Below, in pieces: positions 1,460 to 15,576 of a stretch of DNA of 17,146 nucleotides. The position numbers and the translations under genes were made by a program. The stretch covers positions 1 to 17,146 of the forward strand of contig JAFGKV010000224.1 of NCBI GenBank assembly GCA_016928395.1, read 5' to 3'. This stretch comes from Candidatus Fermentibacterota bacterium. GTDB taxonomy: Bacteria; JAFGKV01. Position 1 is the stretch's first letter. The number at the start of each line of letters is the position of its first letter. The notes beneath the pieces are model-generated. The model saw only the letters and a list, made by a program, of their open reading frames with translations, ran no database searches and was not told the origin of the DNA.

Positions 1460-2626
1460 TTGAAAGACCTAATCTACCTGGATAGTGGCGCAACCTCATT
1501 CCCCAAGCCAGAGGAAGTCTACGTCTTCATGGACCGGTTCTACCGCGACTTCGGAGTCAACCCCGGCCGCTCAGGCTACGACCTGTGCATGGAAACGGGA
1601 ACTTTGGTCGAGAATACGCGCAAGATGCTCACCCAGTTCTTCAACGGAACCGATCCGAACCGCCTGTGCTTTTCCTACAACTCCACGGATGCGCTCAACT
1701 TGATCATATTTGGGACATTGCAGCGCGGCGACCATGCCATCACCACGAACCTGGAGCACAACTCGGTGATCCGCCCCCTCTACCATTTGTGGCAGGATCA
1801 CGGGGTGGAGGTGGATCACATTCCGTTTGACGGCAAGGGATTTGTCCATCCGGAGGACTTCGCCCGTCGGTTCAAGACCAACACCAAACTGGTGGTCATG
1901 AACCATGGCTCCAATGTCATCGGCACTGTGCAGCCCATCCGGGAGATCGGGAAGCTCTGCAGGGAGCGCGGGATCCTGTTCGCCATCGACGCCTCCCAGT
2001 CGGCAGGCATGATCCCCATCGACATGGAGGCTGACTGCGTTGACCTCGTTGCCTTCACGGGTCACAAATCCCTCATGGGCCCGACGGGCATCGGCGGCCT
2101 CTATGTTCGGGAAGGGGTTGTCGTACGCCACACGAGGGCTGGCGGCACCGGCGTGCGTTCGGCGGTGAAGACGCACCTCCATGAGTATCCTTACCGGCTC
2201 GAGTACGGCACGCCCAATGTGCACGGGATCGCGGGGCTTCACGCGGGGCTCAAGTGGGTAGAGGCGCAGGGAATGGCATCGATCCACGAGCGGGAAATGC
2301 ATCTGTGTACCATGCTGCGGGACGGCCTGCAGGGCATAGAGGGCGTGACGATCTACTGCGGGGACGACTTGACGGATCACATCAGTGTCCTGGCATTCAA
2401 CGTCGACGGGATGGAAGCGGGCAATGTGGGCACGATCCTCGATGTGGATCACAATATCGCCTGCCGTACGGGCCTGCACTGCGCACCGTTGGTCCACGAG
2501 CAGCTTGGGACTGTGCCTATTCACGGCGCGGTGCGATTCGGCATCGGGCCGTTCAATACTGAGGAACATATCGAGGCCGCGATCCAGGGTGTTCGCGAGA
2601 TCGCGTCCATGCGACGGGCGCGGTAG
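1460..2626 (+). CDS. Aminotransferase class V / cysteine desulfurase family protein
   Basis: Fold-type I PLP enzyme of the IscS/SufS superfamily, closest in appearance to the stand-alone cysteine desulfurase group typified by TIGR01977. It should remove sulfur from cysteine (or a related thiol donor) as an enzyme-bound persulfide. Evidence: the N-terminal YLDSGATSFPKP, the PLP-binding lysine K203 in FTGHKSLMGPTG, and the catalytic-type cysteine C341 in RTGLHCAPL, with a second cysteine at C335. The protein is 388 aa, normal length. I chose the TTG at 1460 because CGGAGGG lies 5 nt upstream and the product then starts like family members (M-K-D-L-I-Y-L-D). A GTG at 1439 would overlap that ribosome site. 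It is the first gene of the cluster; dsrC follows after 59 bp, so its sulfur acceptor may be DsrC. That link is inference from position. Selenocysteine lyase activity cannot be excluded. Confidence 0.9.
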   Translation: MKDLIYLDSGATSFPKPEEVYVFMDRFYRDFGVNPGRSGYDLCMETGTLVENTRKMLTQFFNGTDPNRLCFSYNSTDALNLIIFGTLQRGDHAITTNLEHNSVIRPLYHLWQDHGVEVDHIPFDGKGFVHPEDFARRFKTNTKLVVMNHGSNVIGTVQPIREIGKLCRERGILFAIDASQSAGMIPIDMEADCVDLVAFTGHKSLMGPTGIGGLYVREGVVVRHTRAGGTGVRSAVKTHLHEYPYRLEYGTPNVHGIAGLHAGLKWVEAQGMASIHEREMHLCTMLRDGLQGIEGVTIYCGDDLTDHISVLAFNVDGMEAGNVGTILDVDHNIACRTGLHCAPLVHEQLGTVPIHGAVRFGIGPFNTEEHIEAAIQGVREIASMRRAR

Positions 2627-2685
2627 GAGCACGCCCCTCGATCGCAACGGTTTCGATCCATCGGCAGGTCACGAAAGGAGCATAT

Positions 2686-3006
2686 ATGGGCTGCATCAAT
2701 GTCAGCGGGCGCGGCGTTCAGATCAATGAAGAAGGGTTCTTGCAGAACCCGGGGGAGTGGAACCGAGAGGTGGCCCGAGAGCTGGCATGCACCCAGGAGG
2801 GCCTGACCGACCTGACCGATGAACACTGGTCCGTGGTCAACTGCATCCGCGAGCACTACCTGGAGCATGATCTGGCCCCCATGGTGCGCAAGATCTGCGT
2901 GACCACCGGCCTGAAGCTCACCCGCATCTTCGAGCTCTTCCCCTCGGGGCCCGCCAAGGGCGCCTGCAAGGTGGCCGGCCTACCCAAACCCGACGGCTGC
3001 GTTTAG
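2686..3006 (+). CDS. dsrC: DsrC / TusE family sulfur-carrier protein (redox-competent DsrC type)
   Basis: Small soluble protein (106 aa) whose flexible C-terminal arm carries sulfur as a persulfide or trisulfide. The arm GPAKGACKVAGLPKPDGCV is almost canonical. Both redox cysteines are present, C105 as penultimate residue and C94 eleven positions earlier, the spacing of true DsrC. TusE-type proteins keep only the last one. Additional cysteines at C3, C35, C53 and C71 are unusual in number. The central WSVVNCIREHYLEHDLAPMVRKI region matches the family helices. The ATG is supported by AAAGGAG 5 nt upstream. Within the cluster it sits between a cysteine desulfurase and a DsrMK-like membrane complex, the known partner that reduces DsrC disulfide or trisulfide in sulfate reducers. 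Confidence 0.95.
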   Translation: MGCINVSGRGVQINEEGFLQNPGEWNREVARELACTQEGLTDLTDEHWSVVNCIREHYLEHDLAPMVRKICVTTGLKLTRIFELFPSGPAKGACKVAGLPKPDGCV

Positions 3007-3030
3007 GAATCGGTGGGAGATTCCTCCCTC

Positions 3031-3657
3031 ATGACTCTTCTGACCTGGGGCGTCATCCTCTCCGCCGGCATCTGCCTGGTCGCGCTCTCGGCCTTGGTGG
3101 CCCGCACCTTCGCCTTCCGGGCGCCTTCGTCGCTGGCTGCCACCCAAGGGAGCGCCGCCAGGGGTATGAGGTATGCGTTCGGCGCGGGGATGCTCCCGAC
3201 CGCCAAGGAGAGTGCCCGGGACCATCTGATGGTGTGGGTGACAGGTATGCTCTATCACGCCGGCATCTTCGCGGGATTGTTCTACCTGGCGTTCACGGTG
3301 ATCGGGTTCCTGCCCGCGGCCATAGTCGCCGCGCTGCGGGTTCTCATCGCGGTGGGCGCCGTCGCGGGGCTCGGCCTTCTCGCACGCCGGATTGCCCTTC
3401 CTCACCTCCGGCAGCTCAGTTGCGCCGACGATTTCGCAGCCAATCTCATCGTCGATCTCTTCCTGACGGCCGCCGTGATCCATTCCTTCGTTCCGACGTT
3501 GCGTGGGCCGTTCTACCTGGTTGCGATCCTGATGTTCCTCTATGTCCCCGTGGGCAAGATCCGACATTGCTTTTTTTTCTTCTACATGCGCATTCTGTTC
3601 GGCACCTTCTTCGGTCGCCGGGGCGTGCTGCCTCATCGAGGCGTCCGTGAAGCCTGA
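3031..3657 (+). CDS. DsrM/HdrE-like cytochrome b membrane subunit
   Basis: Integral membrane protein of 208 aa related to the NarI-like gamma subunits of respiratory complexes. About five hydrophobic segments are visible (roughly residues 3-24, 66-92, 94-117, 136-155, 159-177). Histidines that could ligate heme b are H65 and H76 in HLMVWVTGMLYHAG, H151, and H179 in PVGKIRHCFFFFY; the last resembles the PFTKLVH motif of NarI. It should pass electrons between the quinone pool and the iron-sulfur subunit encoded next. It is closer in size to HdrE than to full DsrM (about 330 aa). The start could be GTG 3013 or ATG 3031. I chose ATG because a GGGAGA lies 10 nt upstream and the first helix then begins at the N-terminus. 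Its stop overlaps the next start by 11 nt. An eight-T run encodes the FFFF stretch. Confidence 0.8.
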   Translation: MTLLTWGVILSAGICLVALSALVARTFAFRAPSSLAATQGSAARGMRYAFGAGMLPTAKESARDHLMVWVTGMLYHAGIFAGLFYLAFTVIGFLPAAIVAALRVLIAVGAVAGLGLLARRIALPHLRQLSCADDFAANLIVDLFLTAAVIHSFVPTLRGPFYLVAILMFLYVPVGKIRHCFFFFYMRILFGTFFGRRGVLPHRGVREA

Positions 3658-4987
3658 GCCAATCAACGCGGGTCCGCTGGAGGACCGCGTCGAGGCCCTA
3701 AAGCCCGATGATCTCACCCGAGCTCTGGAGGAATTCCGGGCCGTCATGACCCGTGATCACGCCGCAGCCTTGGCTTCGTGCGTTCACTGTGGGCTCTGCT
3801 CCGAGACCTGCCACTACTATCTCGCCACCCGGAGGCTGGACGCCATCCCCGCCTACAAGTTGGGGCTTGTCGCCAGCGTGTTCCGCCGGCATGAGGGTCT
3901 TCTGGGCAAAGTAGCGCCGGGATGGGTGGGCGCGAGAACGCTGAACCACGAGACAATCAAGGCGTGGATCGATGCGCTGTTCGGCCGGTGTTCGCTCTGC
4001 GGCAGGTGCGCACTCAACTGCACGATGGGGATCAATATCACCGCGGCGATTCGCGCGGCCAGGGGCGTCCTGGCGGCCTTGGATCTGGTGCCTCCCGGCC
4101 TGAAGTCCACGGTGGACACCGCCTTGATCAAGGGCAACAACATGGGAATCTCCGAGAACGACTTCGTGGAGACCTTGGCCTGGCTTGAGGGGGAGATGCA
4201 GAGTGATGCCGGGTTTGAGACGGCTCGGATGTACGTTGAGGAGACCGGTTGCCGCATGCTCTACACGTTGAATCCACGGGAAGTGATGTTCTTCCCCCTT
4301 TCCATCGTGGCCGTGGCCAAGATTTTCCATGCCGCAGGTGAGAGCTGGACCTTCTCCAAGGATGGGTTCGACGTCACCAACTATGGGCTCTACGACGGCT
4401 CCGATGCGCATGCGGGAACCATGTCGGGACGATTGGTCACCTCCATGGAGCGCCTCGGGGCCGGCACTCTGGTGCTGGCCGAATGCGGTCACGGATTCAA
4501 TTCGAACCGCTGGGAGGCCCCCCAGTGGCTCAATCGGCGCTACCCCTTCGAAGTCAAGAGCATACTCCAGGTGGTGGCCGGCTATCTTCGGGATGGCAGG
4601 ATCAAGGTTGATGCCGCCCAGAACACCCAACCGGTAACGCTCCACGATCCCTGCAATCTGGTACGATTGGGCGGCATCGTGGAGGAGCAGCGGTATCTGC
4701 TGCGGCATACGGCACGTGACTTCCGGGAGATGACGCCCAACCGCGAGCACAACTACTGCTGCGGCGGAGGCGGGGGCCAGTTAGCCATGACCAACTACGC
4801 CGACCGGCGCCTTGAGGCCGGCAGGATCAAGGCGGATCAGATCCGACGCACGGGAGCCAAAATTGTGGCAGTACCGTGCCACAACTGCATCGACCAGCTC
4901 ATGGAGCTCAACAAGCATTATGGGCTCGGGGTGGAGTTGAAGACAGTTTGCGAACTGGTGGCCAATGCGCTGGTGGTGGAGCCGTAG
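3647..4987 (+). CDS. DsrK/HdrD-like (Fe-S)-binding reductase subunit
   Basis: 446-aa cytoplasmic iron-sulfur protein, probable catalytic partner of the preceding cytochrome b. Two 4Fe-4S motifs are intact: C45-x2-C48-x2-C51-x3-C55 and C115-x2-C118-x2-C121-x3-C125. The C-terminal half carries a CCG-type domain: ECGHG (C280), HDPCN (C336), YCCGGGGG (C371, C372) and VPCHNC (C411, C414). This combination is that of DsrK, TmcB and HdrD, where the CCG cysteines bind the noncubane 4Fe-4S centre that cleaves disulfides. The GTG start at 3647 has GAGG 5 nt upstream and overlaps the upstream stop by 11 nt, suggesting translational coupling. The reading frame stays open upstream to 3542, but that part lies inside the cytochrome gene. 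With dsrC two genes upstream, the likely substrate is oxidised or sulfurated DsrC. This assignment is by context, and other glycolate-oxidase-like CCG proteins are a less likely alternative. Confidence 0.88.
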   Translation: MKPEPINAGPLEDRVEALKPDDLTRALEEFRAVMTRDHAAALASCVHCGLCSETCHYYLATRRLDAIPAYKLGLVASVFRRHEGLLGKVAPGWVGARTLNHETIKAWIDALFGRCSLCGRCALNCTMGINITAAIRAARGVLAALDLVPPGLKSTVDTALIKGNNMGISENDFVETLAWLEGEMQSDAGFETARMYVEETGCRMLYTLNPREVMFFPLSIVAVAKIFHAAGESWTFSKDGFDVTNYGLYDGSDAHAGTMSGRLVTSMERLGAGTLVLAECGHGFNSNRWEAPQWLNRRYPFEVKSILQVVAGYLRDGRIKVDAAQNTQPVTLHDPCNLVRLGGIVEEQRYLLRHTARDFREMTPNREHNYCCGGGGGQLAMTNYADRRLEAGRIKADQIRRTGAKIVAVPCHNCIDQLMELNKHYGLGVELKTVCELVANALVVEP

Positions 4988-5056: not shown

Positions 5057-7759
5057 ATGACTAATGACCCCACCGCTCCTTGGACGAAAGCCGCGGAGGA
5101 TCTCGCCGCCGATCTTGGTGTCGACTTGGAGTCGGGGCTCCCCTCGGCCAACGCCTCCGCCCTCCTGGTATCTCATGGCCTCAACGAACTCGTGGAAGAG
5201 AAAGGGCCCAGTCTCCTCGTGCAGTTCCTCGGCCAGTTCAACAACTTCATGGTGTGGGTGCTCATCGGGGCGGGCATCATTGCCGGAATCCTCCAGGAGT
5301 GGGTTGACACTGTTGCCATCACGGGCATCGTTATTCTTAATGCGCTCATGGGCTTCATCCAGGAACACCGGGCCGAAAAGGCTCTGGCCGCCTTGCGCAG
5401 GATGTCCAGTCCCGTTGCCAAGGTGCGCCGAGGAGGCACGACTGTTCAGATTCCCGCAGCCCAAGTCGTCCCGGGTGATGTGGTGGAACTGGAAGCCGGT
5501 GATGCCGTGCCGGCCGACGCACGGATCACATGGGCGACGGGCGGGTTCGCGGTGCAGGAGGCAAGCCTGACCGGTGAATCCCAGCCCGTCTTCAAGACGG
5601 CGGCAACCCTGGAGCGGGCGAAAGTCCCCCTGGCTGAGCGACGGAACATGGTGTTCATGGGCACCTCGGCAGTCGCGGGCAAAGCCCGGGCAATGGTGAT
5701 GGCTACAGGGATGCACACCGAGCTGGGCAAGATCGCCGGCATGTTGCATGCCTCAGGCCATGAGCCGACGCCTCTCCAGCGGCGGCTGACACGGTTCGGG
5801 AAGATCCTGGTCTATGTGTGCCTGGCTTTGGTCTCGCTGGTCTTCCTCGTGGGCTGGCTGCATGGAAGGAGCCTGCTGGAGTCGTTCCTCACGGCCGTGA
5901 GTCTTGCGGTGGCGGTCATTCCGGAGGGCTTGCCCGCCGTGGTGACCATCGCGCTGGCTCTTGGCGTACACCGCATGGCCGCGCGGAATGCCCTGGTCCG
6001 CAAGCTCCCGTCGGTGGAGACACTGGGCTGCGCCACCGTGATCTGTTCCGACAAGACGGGGACGCTGACCCGCAATGAGATGACGGTGCGGGCCGTGTAC
6101 GCGGGCCATCATCTGAACGATGTCTCCGGCATCGGGTATGCGCCCGAAGGGCGCTTCTTGCGGGATGGCGCACCCTTTGATGCGGCCGAAGACGCCGACC
6201 TTCTGCAGACGCTGCTGTGCGGTACGCTCTGCAACGGCGCGACCCTTGAGTCGAAAGGCGGAACATGGCGGGTCATCGGCGATCCGACCGAGGGTGCGCT
6301 CCTCACGGTTGCGGGTAAGGCCGGGCTATCCAAGAAGGCATTGGAGGAGATCCATGACCTGGCTGAGGAGATCCCCTTTGACTCCCAGCGCAAGCGGATG
6401 ACCATGTTGCGGCGTTTTGACGGCGACCTGGTCGCCTATGTCAAAGGCGCCCCCGATCTCCTACTGGATCGATGCGCGCGGATTCTGGAGAACGGTACCG
6501 TTCGGCCCATGGATGATCATGACCGCACGCGGATCCTTGAGGCAAACGGCACGATGACCCGCCGCGCCATGCGGGTTCTGGGCGCCGCCTATCGAACCGT
6601 TGAGGAGCAGGAGACGGTGGGAGCCGAGATCGTGGAGCGCGATCTGATCTTCGCCGGTCTTCTGGCCATGATCGATCCGCCTCGGCAGGAGGTGAAAGAT
6701 GCCGTGGATCTCTGCAAGGAGGCGGGAATCCGCACGGTGATGATCACCGGCGACCATCAGAATACCGCGGTGGCAGTGGCGACGGAGTTGGGGTTCTTCG
6801 AGACCGGGTCGGAGGCAGTGACTGGGGAGGGTCTCGAAAGCATGACGGACGAGCAGCTCACGGGATCGGTGAAGCGGATCGCGGTCTATGCCCGCGTCTC
6901 ACCCGAGCACAAGCTCCGGATCGTCAAGGCATGGAAGCGCCTCGGTGAGATTGTAGCCATGACGGGCGACGGGGTGAACGATGCGCCGGCGGTGAAGGAA
7001 GCCGATATCGGCGTTGCCATGGGAATCACCGGCACCGATGTCACCAAGGAAGTCTCGGACATGGTCATCACTGATGACAACTTCGCGTCTATCGTGTCGG
7101 CGGTGGAGGAGGGCCGCGGCATCTATGACAATATCCGCAAGTTCATCCACTACCTTCTCTCCTGTAACTGCGGCGAGATGCTGGTGATGCTTGTCTCCAC
7201 GTTCGCCGGGACCCCTGTCCCACTTCTCCCCATCCAGATCCTCTGGGTCAACCTTGTGACCGACGGACTTCCCGCGTTGGCCCTCGGCGTGGATCCCATG
7301 GATCCTCATGTGATGCGCCGACCACCCCGACCACCCAAGGAGCCGCTCATCAACCGGCGAACCCTGGCCCTCATCCTGTTTCAGGGAACGGTGATCTGTC
7401 TGTGTTCATTGGGCGTCTTCCTCTTCGTGCTCAAAGGAGGCGGATCAATCCGGGAGGCGCGCACAATGGCGCTGGCGGTGCTGGCGGGAACCCAGCTCTT
7501 TCATTCCCTTAACTGCAGGAGCCAGACCGAGTCATTGTTCACCCTGGGCATTTTCACCAACCGTAGTCTGGTGTTCGCATTTCTTGGTTCGTTCGTGCTC
7601 CAGTTCGCCGTGATCACCCTGCCCGGGGTGCGCGACGTGTTCAAGACCCAGCCGCTCACGATGACACAATGGGGGTTGGTGGTCGCCCTTTCGTCGCTGC
7701 CGCTGTGGGCAGGCGAAGTGCGGAAGCTTCTCCAGCGGCGCGGGAAGGAGACGGTCTAA
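5057..7759 (+). CDS. P-type Ca2+-transporting ATPase (P2A, SERCA/PMR1-like)
   Basis: 900-aa inner-membrane cation pump, full length for the P2 class. Domains in order: N-terminal cation-ATPase domain, actuator loop with T172-G-E-S, M4 with VIPEGLP (E290), phosphorylation motif CSDKTGTLT (D332), nucleotide-binding GDPTEGALL and KGAPD (K463), hinge TGDGVNDAP (D638, D642), then the C-terminal transmembrane domain. The residues that bind calcium in SERCA appear conserved: E290 in M4, N704 and E707 in M5 (CNCGE), N732, T735 and D736 in M6 (NLVTDG). This favours Ca2+ over Na+/K+ or Mg2+. ATG 5057 has GGGAG about 8 nt upstream. It follows the DsrK-like gene by 69 bp and could be cotranscribed, though no functional link is evident. 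Mn2+ transport is possible. Confidence 0.93.
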   Translation: MTNDPTAPWTKAAEDLAADLGVDLESGLPSANASALLVSHGLNELVEEKGPSLLVQFLGQFNNFMVWVLIGAGIIAGILQEWVDTVAITGIVILNALMGFIQEHRAEKALAALRRMSSPVAKVRRGGTTVQIPAAQVVPGDVVELEAGDAVPADARITWATGGFAVQEASLTGESQPVFKTAATLERAKVPLAERRNMVFMGTSAVAGKARAMVMATGMHTELGKIAGMLHASGHEPTPLQRRLTRFGKILVYVCLALVSLVFLVGWLHGRSLLESFLTAVSLAVAVIPEGLPAVVTIALALGVHRMAARNALVRKLPSVETLGCATVICSDKTGTLTRNEMTVRAVYAGHHLNDVSGIGYAPEGRFLRDGAPFDAAEDADLLQTLLCGTLCNGATLESKGGTWRVIGDPTEGALLTVAGKAGLSKKALEEIHDLAEEIPFDSQRKRMTMLRRFDGDLVAYVKGAPDLLLDRCARILENGTVRPMDDHDRTRILEANGTMTRRAMRVLGAAYRTVEEQETVGAEIVERDLIFAGLLAMIDPPRQEVKDAVDLCKEAGIRTVMITGDHQNTAVAVATELGFFETGSEAVTGEGLESMTDEQLTGSVKRIAVYARVSPEHKLRIVKAWKRLGEIVAMTGDGVNDAPAVKEADIGVAMGITGTDVTKEVSDMVITDDNFASIVSAVEEGRGIYDNIRKFIHYLLSCNCGEMLVMLVSTFAGTPVPLLPIQILWVNLVTDGLPALALGVDPMDPHVMRRPPRPPKEPLINRRTLALILFQGTVICLCSLGVFLFVLKGGGSIREARTMALAVLAGTQLFHSLNCRSQTESLFTLGIFTNRSLVFAFLGSFVLQFAVITLPGVRDVFKTQPLTMTQWGLVVALSSLPLWAGEVRKLLQRRGKETV

Positions 7760-13774: not shown

Positions 13775-14194
13775 TTACCTCCTGGGCTTGTGGCGGGTCC
13801 CTATGTCGAGGCGGCCCGTCACTGACGCGCCATCCTCAAGTACGAGGGACCACGCGCGGATGTCCCCGATCACCCGGGCGCTGGGGCTCAGTAGCACGCG
13901 CCCCGACGACCACAGGTCGCCTCGAATCATTCCATGCACGATGATCTCTCCCGCATGAATGCTGCCGAACACCGTGGCCTCCTTGCGTATCAAAACGCTG
14001 GCCCCCGTCATCAAATCCCGGCCGATGTTCTCGGTGACCTGAAGGTCTTCTAGCTCGATCCGACGATTGCACGCTGCGCACGGCACCGAGATCGCTTCCC
14101 TGGCGACCGACGTCTCTCGTCCGCAGTAGGGGCATGCGACCGTGCGCATGGCGCGGTCTGCCGCGGGAGGGCGACTCATGGCCACACCGAGCAT
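13775..14194 (-). CDS. Bactofilin-family protein with N-terminal zinc ribbon
   Basis: 139-aa protein. Residues 20-44 form a zinc-ribbon (C21-x2-C24 and C39-x2-C42 in ACPYCGRE...PCAACNRR). Residues 50-132 form a bactofilin/polymer-forming core: short beta-helix repeats such as GASVLIRKEATVFGSIHAG, IIVHGMIRGDLWSSG, and LLSPSARVIGDIRAWSLVLEDGAS. Bactofilins polymerise without nucleotide and scaffold cell-envelope processes. The zinc finger replaces the usual unstructured N-terminal tail. The ATG at 14194 is 9 nt beyond the upstream bactofilin stop; internal ATGs at 14179 and 14149 are possible but have no better ribosome site. It is sandwiched between a canonical bactofilin and comM with a 2-nt gap to the latter. 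Confidence 0.85.
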   Translation of the reverse strand: MLGVAMSRPPAADRAMRTVACPYCGRETSVAREAISVPCAACNRRIELEDLQVTENIGRDLMTGASVLIRKEATVFGSIHAGEIIVHGMIRGDLWSSGRVLLSPSARVIGDIRAWSLVLEDGASVTGRLDIGTRHKPRR

Positions 14195-14203
14195 GCAATG
14201 GCT

Positions 14204-14707
14204 CTACTTGATGCCGGTTTTCACCGCCTTGACCAGGAGTTCAGGAGCCGAGGCCGTGGAGTCGGCACCGAGAGCGCTTACCGCGATGGCGGGCTTGGGC
14301 TTCTGTACATCGGCGCCCGAAGGGTTGACATCACAGTGACCGACGAACGTGGCCCCCTCGGCGATGGCCAGGCGTGACGCGCGGATATCGCCGATCAAGC
14401 TCGCCGTCGGGTTGAGTTGCACCTTGCCCTCGGCCATGATATTGCCGGAGACTTTTCCGTCGACCACGACATTACCCGATCGTATGTCGGCGTGCACGTC
14501 GCCCGACTGCCCCACGATGAGAAAACCCTTGGTGGTGAGTTCGCCCTCGAACTTGCCATCGATCTTCAGCGGCCTCTCGAAAGTAAGGGTGCCCTTGAAG
14601 CTCGTGTCGGCACCCAGAGTCGTCTCCACCTCGCCCTCCGGCGTCGGCGCGAACGGTCGTGGCTGCACGGGGTCATCCCACTCTGACTGGCGGTCTCTCT
14701 TGATCAT
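14204..14707 (-). CDS. Bactofilin (polymer-forming cytoskeletal protein)
   Basis: 167-aa cytoskeletal protein. After a hydrophilic, proline-rich N-terminus (residues 1-27), the DUF583 core at about 28-126 shows the repeating beta-helix pattern (FKGTLTFERPLKIDGKFEG, GFLIVGQSGDVHADIRSG, VVVDGKVSGNI, VQLNPTASLIGDIRASRLAIAEGATFVGHCDV). A flexible alanine- and proline-rich tail follows. ATG 14707 is supported by GAGGAGGT 7 nt upstream, a strong site; longer in-frame versions reach back over the plsC stop and are less likely. It probably polymerises at the inner membrane and may coassemble with the zinc-ribbon paralogue encoded 9 nt downstream. Confidence 0.92.
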   Translation of the reverse strand: MIKRDRQSEWDDPVQPRPFAPTPEGEVETTLGADTSFKGTLTFERPLKIDGKFEGELTTKGFLIVGQSGDVHADIRSGNVVVDGKVSGNIMAEGKVQLNPTASLIGDIRASRLAIAEGATFVGHCDVNPSGADVQKPKPAIAVSALGADSTASAPELLVKAVKTGIK

Positions 14708-14787
14708 CGATGTAACCTCCTCTGAGGCGGCCTTCTCTCGCGGAAGGAACCTCTCGATTGTGGCGCGTGGCGATACCATGCGCGCCG

Positions 14788-15576
14788 TCACACACCTGAT
14801 GCCCACAGGGGACGATATGGGGGATCCAGAAGGTCGACGATAGGGCGGGTATAGGCCTCCATCTCTTGAGCCTTATCCGTGTTGGGATCCGGTTGAGCAA
14901 TAAAGGGGCCGCCAATGCGGAGCACAATGGTCGTGAGATGGGGAAATCTTGAGCCCACGCCCAGCATTCGCTCCGTACCCTGCAATGCCATGGGCAACAC
15001 CAGGTTGCCGCGCAGATAGTTCGCCAGGGCCGGTACTGGTGGCCCCATGCGGCCGGTCCTCGTGCGGGTTCCTTCAGGGAAGAGCAATACCGGATGGGCA
15101 GCCACCACACGCTTGAATGCCTTGAAGCTCTCCAGGGCCTGCCGCCGCTTCACTTCGGGGGTTTCATCCGCCAGCGCCTGGATCACCTTGATGGTGTTCA
15201 CGCCGGCGGTGAAGAAGCGGCGCCAAAGTGTTCGGTAGGTCTTCTGACCCGCAAGAGAGAACAGGGAGCGCGAGAGATCCCCGAAGCCGACGCGATTGAG
15301 CAGTTGCTCGATGATGTGGGAGTCGGCATAGCTGGCATGGTTTGAGATGATGACCAGGGGCGATCCCGCCCGATGCCTATTCCATGCCTCCTGAAGGTGC
15401 GGGAGTCCCTCCACGCGGGAGTCACGACGGATGAAGGAACCGACAAACCAGCCTCCCAGGAGGCGGTTGATTTCGGCGGAACTAAAGACGGCGGCGTATG
15501 ACAATCGCGAGTGCACGGCGGTGATATCGCTCCGTAGTGAAGCATCCTCGGGTTGACCGGAAGTGGAACGCACCAT
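14788..15576 (-). CDS. PlsC-like lysophospholipid/1-acylglycerol-3-phosphate acyltransferase
   Basis: 262-aa membrane-associated acyltransferase expected to acylate lysophosphatidic acid or a related lipid. Catalytic NH-x4-D motif: N79-H80-A-S-Y-A-D85. Second motif FPEGTRTRTG (166-175), typical of the substrate-binding EGTR. A further GGPF near 222-225 and NLVLPMALQGTE near 191-202 fit motif IV of the family. One hydrophobic segment near residues 29-49 could anchor the protein. ATG 15576 is the only good candidate in the region but has no clear Shine-Dalgarno. The gene begins a co-directional run with two bactofilins and comM, with 80 bp to the first bactofilin. Confidence 0.9.
   Translation of the reverse strand: MVRSTSGQPEDASLRSDITAVHSRLSYAAVFSSAEINRLLGGWFVGSFIRRDSRVEGLPHLQEAWNRHRAGSPLVIISNHASYADSHIIEQLLNRVGFGDLSRSLFSLAGQKTYRTLWRRFFTAGVNTIKVIQALADETPEVKRRQALESFKAFKRVVAAHPVLLFPEGTRTRTGRMGPPVPALANYLRGNLVLPMALQGTERMLGVGSRFPHLTTIVLRIGGPFIAQPDPNTDKAQEMEAYTRPIVDLLDPPYRPLWASGV

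Follow-up and report, generated by a model that had tools for sequence, protein, structure and literature searches.

When DsrC and the DsrMK membrane reductase occur together, they are usually taken to indicate DsrAB-based respiration of sulfate, sulfite, or sulfur, and the stretch described here raises the question of what they do when encoded beside a cysteine desulfurase in a genome without detectable sulfite reductase. The window, by which we mean the whole stretch of DNA analyzed, is an entire contig of 17,146 bases (JAFGKV010000224.1; contig C279 of genome G000) from the draft genome of a Candidatus Fermentibacterota bacterium (4.79 Mb, 94% complete, 3% contaminated), whose closest named relative in our scan was Candidatus Eisenbacteria Prado127 (G001, locus L053). 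At 1460-4987 it carries genes for a cysteine desulfurase, DsrC, and DsrM-like and DsrK-like proteins. We consider it probable, if far from settled, that they form a DsrAB-independent sulfur-release module, in which the desulfurase feeds DsrC and the DsrMK-like complex re-reduces DsrC from menaquinol.

Cysteine desulfurase, DsrC, and DsrMK-like proteins

The 4 co-directional genes are tightly packed on the forward strand, in agreement with the first-pass annotation of the sequence. The desulfurase gene (1460-2626) has a TTG start preceded by a ribosome-binding-site-like GGAGGGA (1448-1454), and its product scored 432.9 bits against TIGR01977 (the EF2568 family; cut-off 377). The active site claimed for it was found intact, with the pyridoxal phosphate-binding Lys203 and the persulfide Cys341 invariant (100%) in 66 and 65 homologues, respectively. 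Cys341 sits in a short RTGLHCAP loop typical of type II, SufS-like enzymes. Short-loop type II desulfurases require a partner acceptor protein and no SufE/SufU-type protein was seen in the cluster, which makes DsrC the natural acceptor candidate. Phylogenetically, 33 sampled cluster desulfurases fell on one side of a branch (Shimodaira-Hasegawa-like approximate likelihood ratio test support of 95) opposite 20 paralogues; this tree and that of DsrK, below, are quick trees with a single support measure.

The dsrC gene (2686-3006, ATG start) encodes a member of the DsrC/TusE/DsvC family, with 97.7 bits against TIGR03342 (cut-off 53.5) and 113.9 bits (6e-33) against PF04358 (cut-off 24.9), and its best matches in the PDB were DsrC/DsvC proteins. 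Both C-terminal redox cysteines of the redox-active type, C94 and the penultimate C105, are present 11 residues apart, as had been noted, and they are conserved among homologues, C105 in all and C94 in 71 of 73 sequences (97%). The protein ends in KPDGCV, and the residue before GCV (position 103) is Asp in 71 and Glu in 2 of the 73 cluster DsrCs, with Thr at this position in 11 of 23 comparison DsrCs and in most of the DsrAB-linked copies. A DsrC tree of 102 columns was too weak to show the cluster DsrCs as one clade, and the D/E103 signature was used instead. Stockdreher et al. (PMC3397948) stated that organisms without DsrAB, apart from a small number, have another residue in place of the first DsrC cysteine; judged from the aligned residues, the module is a large exception to this reported loss. 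Two further observations concern DsrC in other loci. In L020/L023, L021/L024, and L025/L026, two DsrC-like domains in tandem, without the terminal cysteines, were identified (as a single-frame fusion in L021 and L025); the genomes concerned also encode an ordinary DsrC. Immediately 5' of dsrC in L116 (2300-2581), and in 11 more loci of the Bacteroidota type, lies a gene for a conserved protein of ~80-120 amino acids that contains cysteine and has no match in Pfam or NCBIfam.

The dsrM-like gene (3013-3657) can start at GTG 3013 or ATG 3031, and the latter is more likely, judged from its ribosome-binding site and from the relative L035. Its product had been called NarI-like; no Pfam model matched it by sequence and a sequence search of solved structures found nothing, but the predicted fold bears the name out. 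The AlphaFold model (pLDDT 91) best matched Escherichia coli NarI, with 8 NarI entries at Z 10.5-10.9 over ~170 residues and the next fold at Z 8.8, and H82 and H185 were invariant and H71 conserved at 91%. By modeled fold and conserved histidines, the protein is a NarI/DsrM-type membrane subunit, with a presumed heme b and quinol site.

The dsrK-like gene (3647-4987, GTG start) overlaps the dsrM-like gene by 11 bases and encodes a heterodisulfide-reductase-type protein with a CCG domain (PF02754) and PF13183, whose AlphaFold model (pLDDT 90) matched the EtfD and HdrB folds. The 2-ferredoxin-plus-CCG architecture noted earlier was recovered as 2 CxxCxxCxxxC motifs of [4Fe-4S] ferredoxin type and 1 intact CCG site for a noncubane cluster (C336, C371, C372, C411, and C414), and across 83 sequences all 5 CCG and 8 ferredoxin cysteines were invariant except C45, at 99%. 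The wording "DsrMK-like" proved apt, with the protein below the NCBIfam cut-offs for DsrK (NF045796, 219 vs. 400 bits), HmcF (NF045711, 279 vs. 750 bits), and TmcB (NF045724, 257 vs. 735 bits). The cluster DsrKs formed a clade (support 99) that included 2 lone DsrKs, canonical DsrK was separate (support 100), and the nearest neighbors of the clade were other DsrK-type paralogues. Identity with canonical DsrMK is rejected by both model score and tree. A DsrMK-like pair akin to the cluster type was also seen in a DsrAB-bearing genome (L197, contig C58 of G008), near siroheme-synthesis-like genes.

Spread of the gene set and search for sulfite reductase

We scanned 84,980 GTDB species genomes with a 3-row DsrK alignment and kept the best 80 loci. 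These spanned ~9 phyla, including Bacteroidota, Acidobacteriota, Aminicenantes, Eisenbacteria, Zixibacteria, Ignavibacteriota, Krumholzibacteriota, Gemmatimonadota, and Planctomycetota, with Holophagae among the mostly uncultured carriers. The order dsrC-dsrM-dsrK was found in nearly all 80 loci, and a desulfurase gene adjoined it in 66, lying convergently downstream in 27, co-directionally downstream in 37, and upstream in 2. Prado127 shares the gene order of the window (identities of 87% for the desulfurase, 84% for DsrC, 72% for DsrM, and 90% for DsrK), and G027, of a different lineage, has the order dsrC-dsrM-dsrK-desulfurase. A survey for a conserved order of desulfurase-dsrC-dsrM-dsrK had been suggested as a check; gene content was kept across ~9 phyla, but the position of the desulfurase varied. 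Because the desulfurase may lie upstream, downstream, or convergent, the association has survived repeated rearrangement. Chance adjacency is rejected, with the same genes in Prado127 and in ~9 phyla in 3 arrangements.

Among the 14 loci without an adjacent desulfurase, 7 end at contig ends, and 9 of 11 searched genomes without an adjacent copy carry a desulfurase of 58-75% identity elsewhere. In L106 and L120, both from Bacteroidales, dsrK stands alone, and the genomes have their desulfurase and DsrC genes at other sites. Across 247 Bacteroidota, a close desulfurase (E < 1e-150) and a close DsrK (E < 1e-160) occurred in exactly the same 2 genomes; one of the 2 was the chosen center, so that the fair chance probability is ~1 in 246. 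Conserved content, together with whole-genome co-occurrence even when the genes are scattered, strongly supports a functional link of the desulfurase with DsrCMK without DsrAB. Rumen and horse-gut Bacteroidales (L106, L120, L207, L208, L215, and L216) were seen to have dsrK, desulfurase, and dsrC genes all present but scattered, with dsrC adjoining dsrM in L216.

No match to DsrA (TIGR02064) was identified in G000, G001, G002, or G027, and none of 54 searched genomes, 50 of them carrying cluster loci, had a DsrA above the cut-off, with 1 weak match below it. Two of the 54 genomes are single-contig chromosomes (CP070702, Eisenbacteria bin56, and CP070687, Bacteroidales bin64). The description of the cluster as free of sulfite reductase genes thus extends, by the DsrA model, to the window genome and 53 others, and by the same model the DsrABCMK pathway of dissimilatory sulfite reduction, with DsrAB in the genome, is not encoded there. 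Since the TIGR02064 search also detects the assimilatory sulfite reductases of E. coli and Bacillus subtilis, assimilatory enzymes likewise seem, on the basis of this search, to be missing from the searched genomes.

Proposed sulfur release from cysteine and competing explanations

Cysteine desulfurases convert cysteine to alanine and an enzyme persulfide, with sulfur at the zero oxidation level, and release of that sulfur as sulfide therefore requires 2 electrons. In the module proposed here, the desulfurase would convert L-cysteine to alanine and keep the sulfur as a Cys341 persulfide, to be passed on to Cys105 on the flexible C-terminal arm of DsrC. Cys94 may then attack the Cys105 persulfide, or a trisulfide may form, so that sulfide would be released and DsrC left oxidized as a disulfide. 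The DsrMK-like complex would re-reduce DsrC, its NarI-like heme subunit putatively conducting the electrons from menaquinol. The net reaction would be cysteine + 2[H] to alanine + H2S, in which the sulfur of cysteine would serve as a quinone-linked terminal electron acceptor. Steps of this kind have precedents: DsrC supplies electrons by forming a disulfide and is re-reduced by DsrMK (PMC10504309; PMC13232883), and Allochromatium vinosum DsrC was persulfurated in vitro by E. coli IscS and cysteine, for which the penultimate cysteine was required (PMC3397948). We infer from the genes the transfer of sulfur, the direction of electron flow, quinol as the donor, and any conservation of energy. The further claim that desulfurase, DsrC, and DsrMK carry out an energy-conserving anaerobic respiration in ~9 phyla, in which menaquinol would reduce cysteine to alanine and sulfide without sulfite reductase, is put forward tentatively, as a possibility that we would not yet favor. 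Much less likely is that, with an attached cysteine synthase, sulfur cycles as a catalyst and serine is reduced to alanine through cysteine.

Several points weigh against the sulfur-release module. The pairing of this desulfurase with DsrC is putative and read from genes, and Cys94 is replaced by alanine in 2 Aminicenantes DsrCs. The genomes with the cluster were assembled from metagenomes, for most of them no completeness is reported, and parts of the collection were masked. A cysteine synthase gene lies beside dsrK, or between dsrK and the desulfurase gene, in several Aminicenantes and others (L045:5665-6765, L054:8654-9442, L058:9898-11001, and L210), and its product would re-fix the released sulfide; from the gene neighborhood, this suggests that the cluster is tied to cysteine and may take part in a cysteine-sulfide cycle. 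Finally, the first-pass annotation had proposed a search of the genome for dsrAB, dsrEFH, and tusA, among others; in the window genome dsrA was not found but TusA and DsrE/DsrE2 were, along with an Hdr-Nuo cluster on contig C304. The former are possible other sulfur donors, so that the desulfurase need not be the sole one, and the latter is another possible redox partner of DsrC.

These genes bear on the best-surviving alternative, in which inorganic sulfane sulfur, passed on by TusA and DsrE/DsrE2, is the main source for DsrC, the desulfurase does no more than prime or replenish the carriers, and the module serves polysulfide or elemental sulfur reduction or Hdr-partnered sulfur oxidation. 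We regard it as unlikely, if worth serious weighing. In 2 Bacteroidota loci (L087/L200 and L112), the cluster runs on with DsrE2, TusA, FlpD, and 2 HdrA genes, followed by a QmoC-like protein in the 1 locus where the contig continues (L200), and in L091 DsrE2-TusA is followed by the contig end. The window genome itself encodes, at ~23.0-34.1 kb of C304 (L230 and L233), the series DsrE-TusA-HdrA/GltD-HdrA-winged helix-turn-helix protein-HdrC-HdrB-fusion of NuoG-like and GcvH/lipoyl domains-thioredoxin-like protein-NuoF, possibly, from its gene content, an NADH-linked Hdr complex with a fused LbpA-like domain. Yet the extension was seen in only 3 of the 80 loci, the desulfurase is the universal partner, and family searches found neither TusA nor DsrE in G126, G137, and G142, and these proteins are therefore not essential to the core module. 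DsrC may have several inputs. The extended Bacteroidota clusters also hold a second SufS-like desulfurase of 490-530 amino acids (L087/L200 and L112), and the extension at L087:3201-15296 includes a CRP-type regulator and a NifX-like protein.

We judge a biosynthetic relay, in which a TusE-like DsrC hands on sulfur from the desulfurase for tRNA thiolation or Fe-S assembly and DsrMK resets over-oxidized DsrC, to be improbable. TusE, a homologue of DsrC, transports sulfur from IscS by way of TusA and TusBCD in E. coli (PMC3397948), and Fe-S assembly and tRNA thiolation are textbook destinations of desulfurase sulfur (PMC13232883). However, the window DsrC fell well below the TusE equivalog cut-off (PRK11508, 65 vs. 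191 bits) and retains both redox cysteines, such a relay has no need for a dedicated membrane quinone complex, and the cluster-bearing genomes encode further SufS/IscS-type enzymes. The module is also rare (2 of 247 Bacteroidota), in contrast to the near-universal tRNA thiolation and Fe-S assembly.

Reverse operation, in which sulfide and DsrC would be oxidized to DsrC persulfide, the quinone pool would take up the electrons, and the desulfurase or cysteine synthase would be a mere sink, has little to recommend it, even though natural Dsr systems work in both directions (PMC10504309) and several loci have a cysteine synthase gene next to the cluster. The searched genomes gave no DsrA above the cut-off, and the surroundings of the core genes revealed no other step of oxidation. 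Reverse operation of a cysteine desulfurase in cells is not known.

TIGR01977 takes its name from EF_2568, described as a probable selenocysteine lyase (PMC2276186), but a selenium-handling module is rejected as very improbable, since the window desulfurase scored 300 bits against the SclA selenocysteine lyase model NF040779 (cut-off 525), and a separate selenium set lies elsewhere in the genome, on contig C22 (1978-6024; L161; YedE [TIGR04112]-TusA-TIGR01977 desulfurase paralogue-SelD), with its desulfurase paralogue outside the cluster-desulfurase clade.

Elsewhere in the window, a PMR1/SERCA-type Ca2+ P-type ATPase gene (5057-7759) begins 69 bases 3' of dsrK, and in Prado127 such a gene likewise comes after dsrK. 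Its membership in the module is rejected, as besides the 2 genus members it was found near only 1 other locus (L066). Two neighboring minus-strand genes at 13775-14806 appear bactofilin-like by eye. Scans for consensus promoters and terminators gave matches no more numerous than in shuffled sequence.

Comparison with known systems

No description of the desulfurase-DsrC-DsrMK combination was found in the open-access literature, and an account in a paywalled paper or preprint is possible. The association of known parts is real, widespread, and apparently undescribed, with DsrC-DsrMK presumably fed by a cysteine desulfurase instead of DsrAB. It offers desulfurase sulfur a possible respiratory fate, represents a possible sulfide source overlooked by dsrAB surveys, and bears on how a module of DsrC and DsrMK might have predated sulfite reduction. 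A desulfurase gene adjoining a dsrC that ends in KPDGCV provides a marker, and the pair lends itself to a simple 2-protein assay.

The window desulfurase belongs to the same family as the selenium-linked TIGR01977 desulfurases/lyases but differs from them in its separate clade and its linkage to dsrCMK rather than selD. Hdr-type systems (FlxABCD-HdrABC, sHdr, and Qmo) have counterparts in the HdrA/B/C-type proteins, TusA, and DsrE that are encoded on another contig of the window genome and joined to the cluster in some Bacteroidota, but these lie outside the conserved desulfurase-dsrCMK core. As in the E. coli Tus relay (IscS-TusA-TusBCD-TusE-MnmA), a cysteine desulfurase would feed a carrier of the DsrC/TusE family; here, in contrast, the carrier keeps its second cysteine and adjoins a membrane redox complex, and in 3 cluster genomes no TusA or DsrE-family intermediates were found by family search.

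The TmcB/HmcF-type DsrK paralogues of sulfate reducers gave the best NCBIfam scores and share the 2-subunit core of NarI-like and CCG proteins, but the cluster DsrK is far under both equivalog cut-offs and no multiheme cytochrome adjoins it. With the DsrC-DsrMK(JOP) system of sulfate and sulfite reduction, the module shares a 2-cysteine DsrC, a membrane reductase of NarI-like and CCG iron-sulfur subunits, and, by analogy, the presumed reduction of a DsrC trisulfide or disulfide by menaquinol. It differs in that the tested cluster genomes have no DsrA and the cluster no DsrJOP, in that its DsrK forms a clade of its own below the DsrK cut-off, and in that its DsrC ends in KPD/EGCV rather than KPTGCV and is linked to a cysteine desulfurase.

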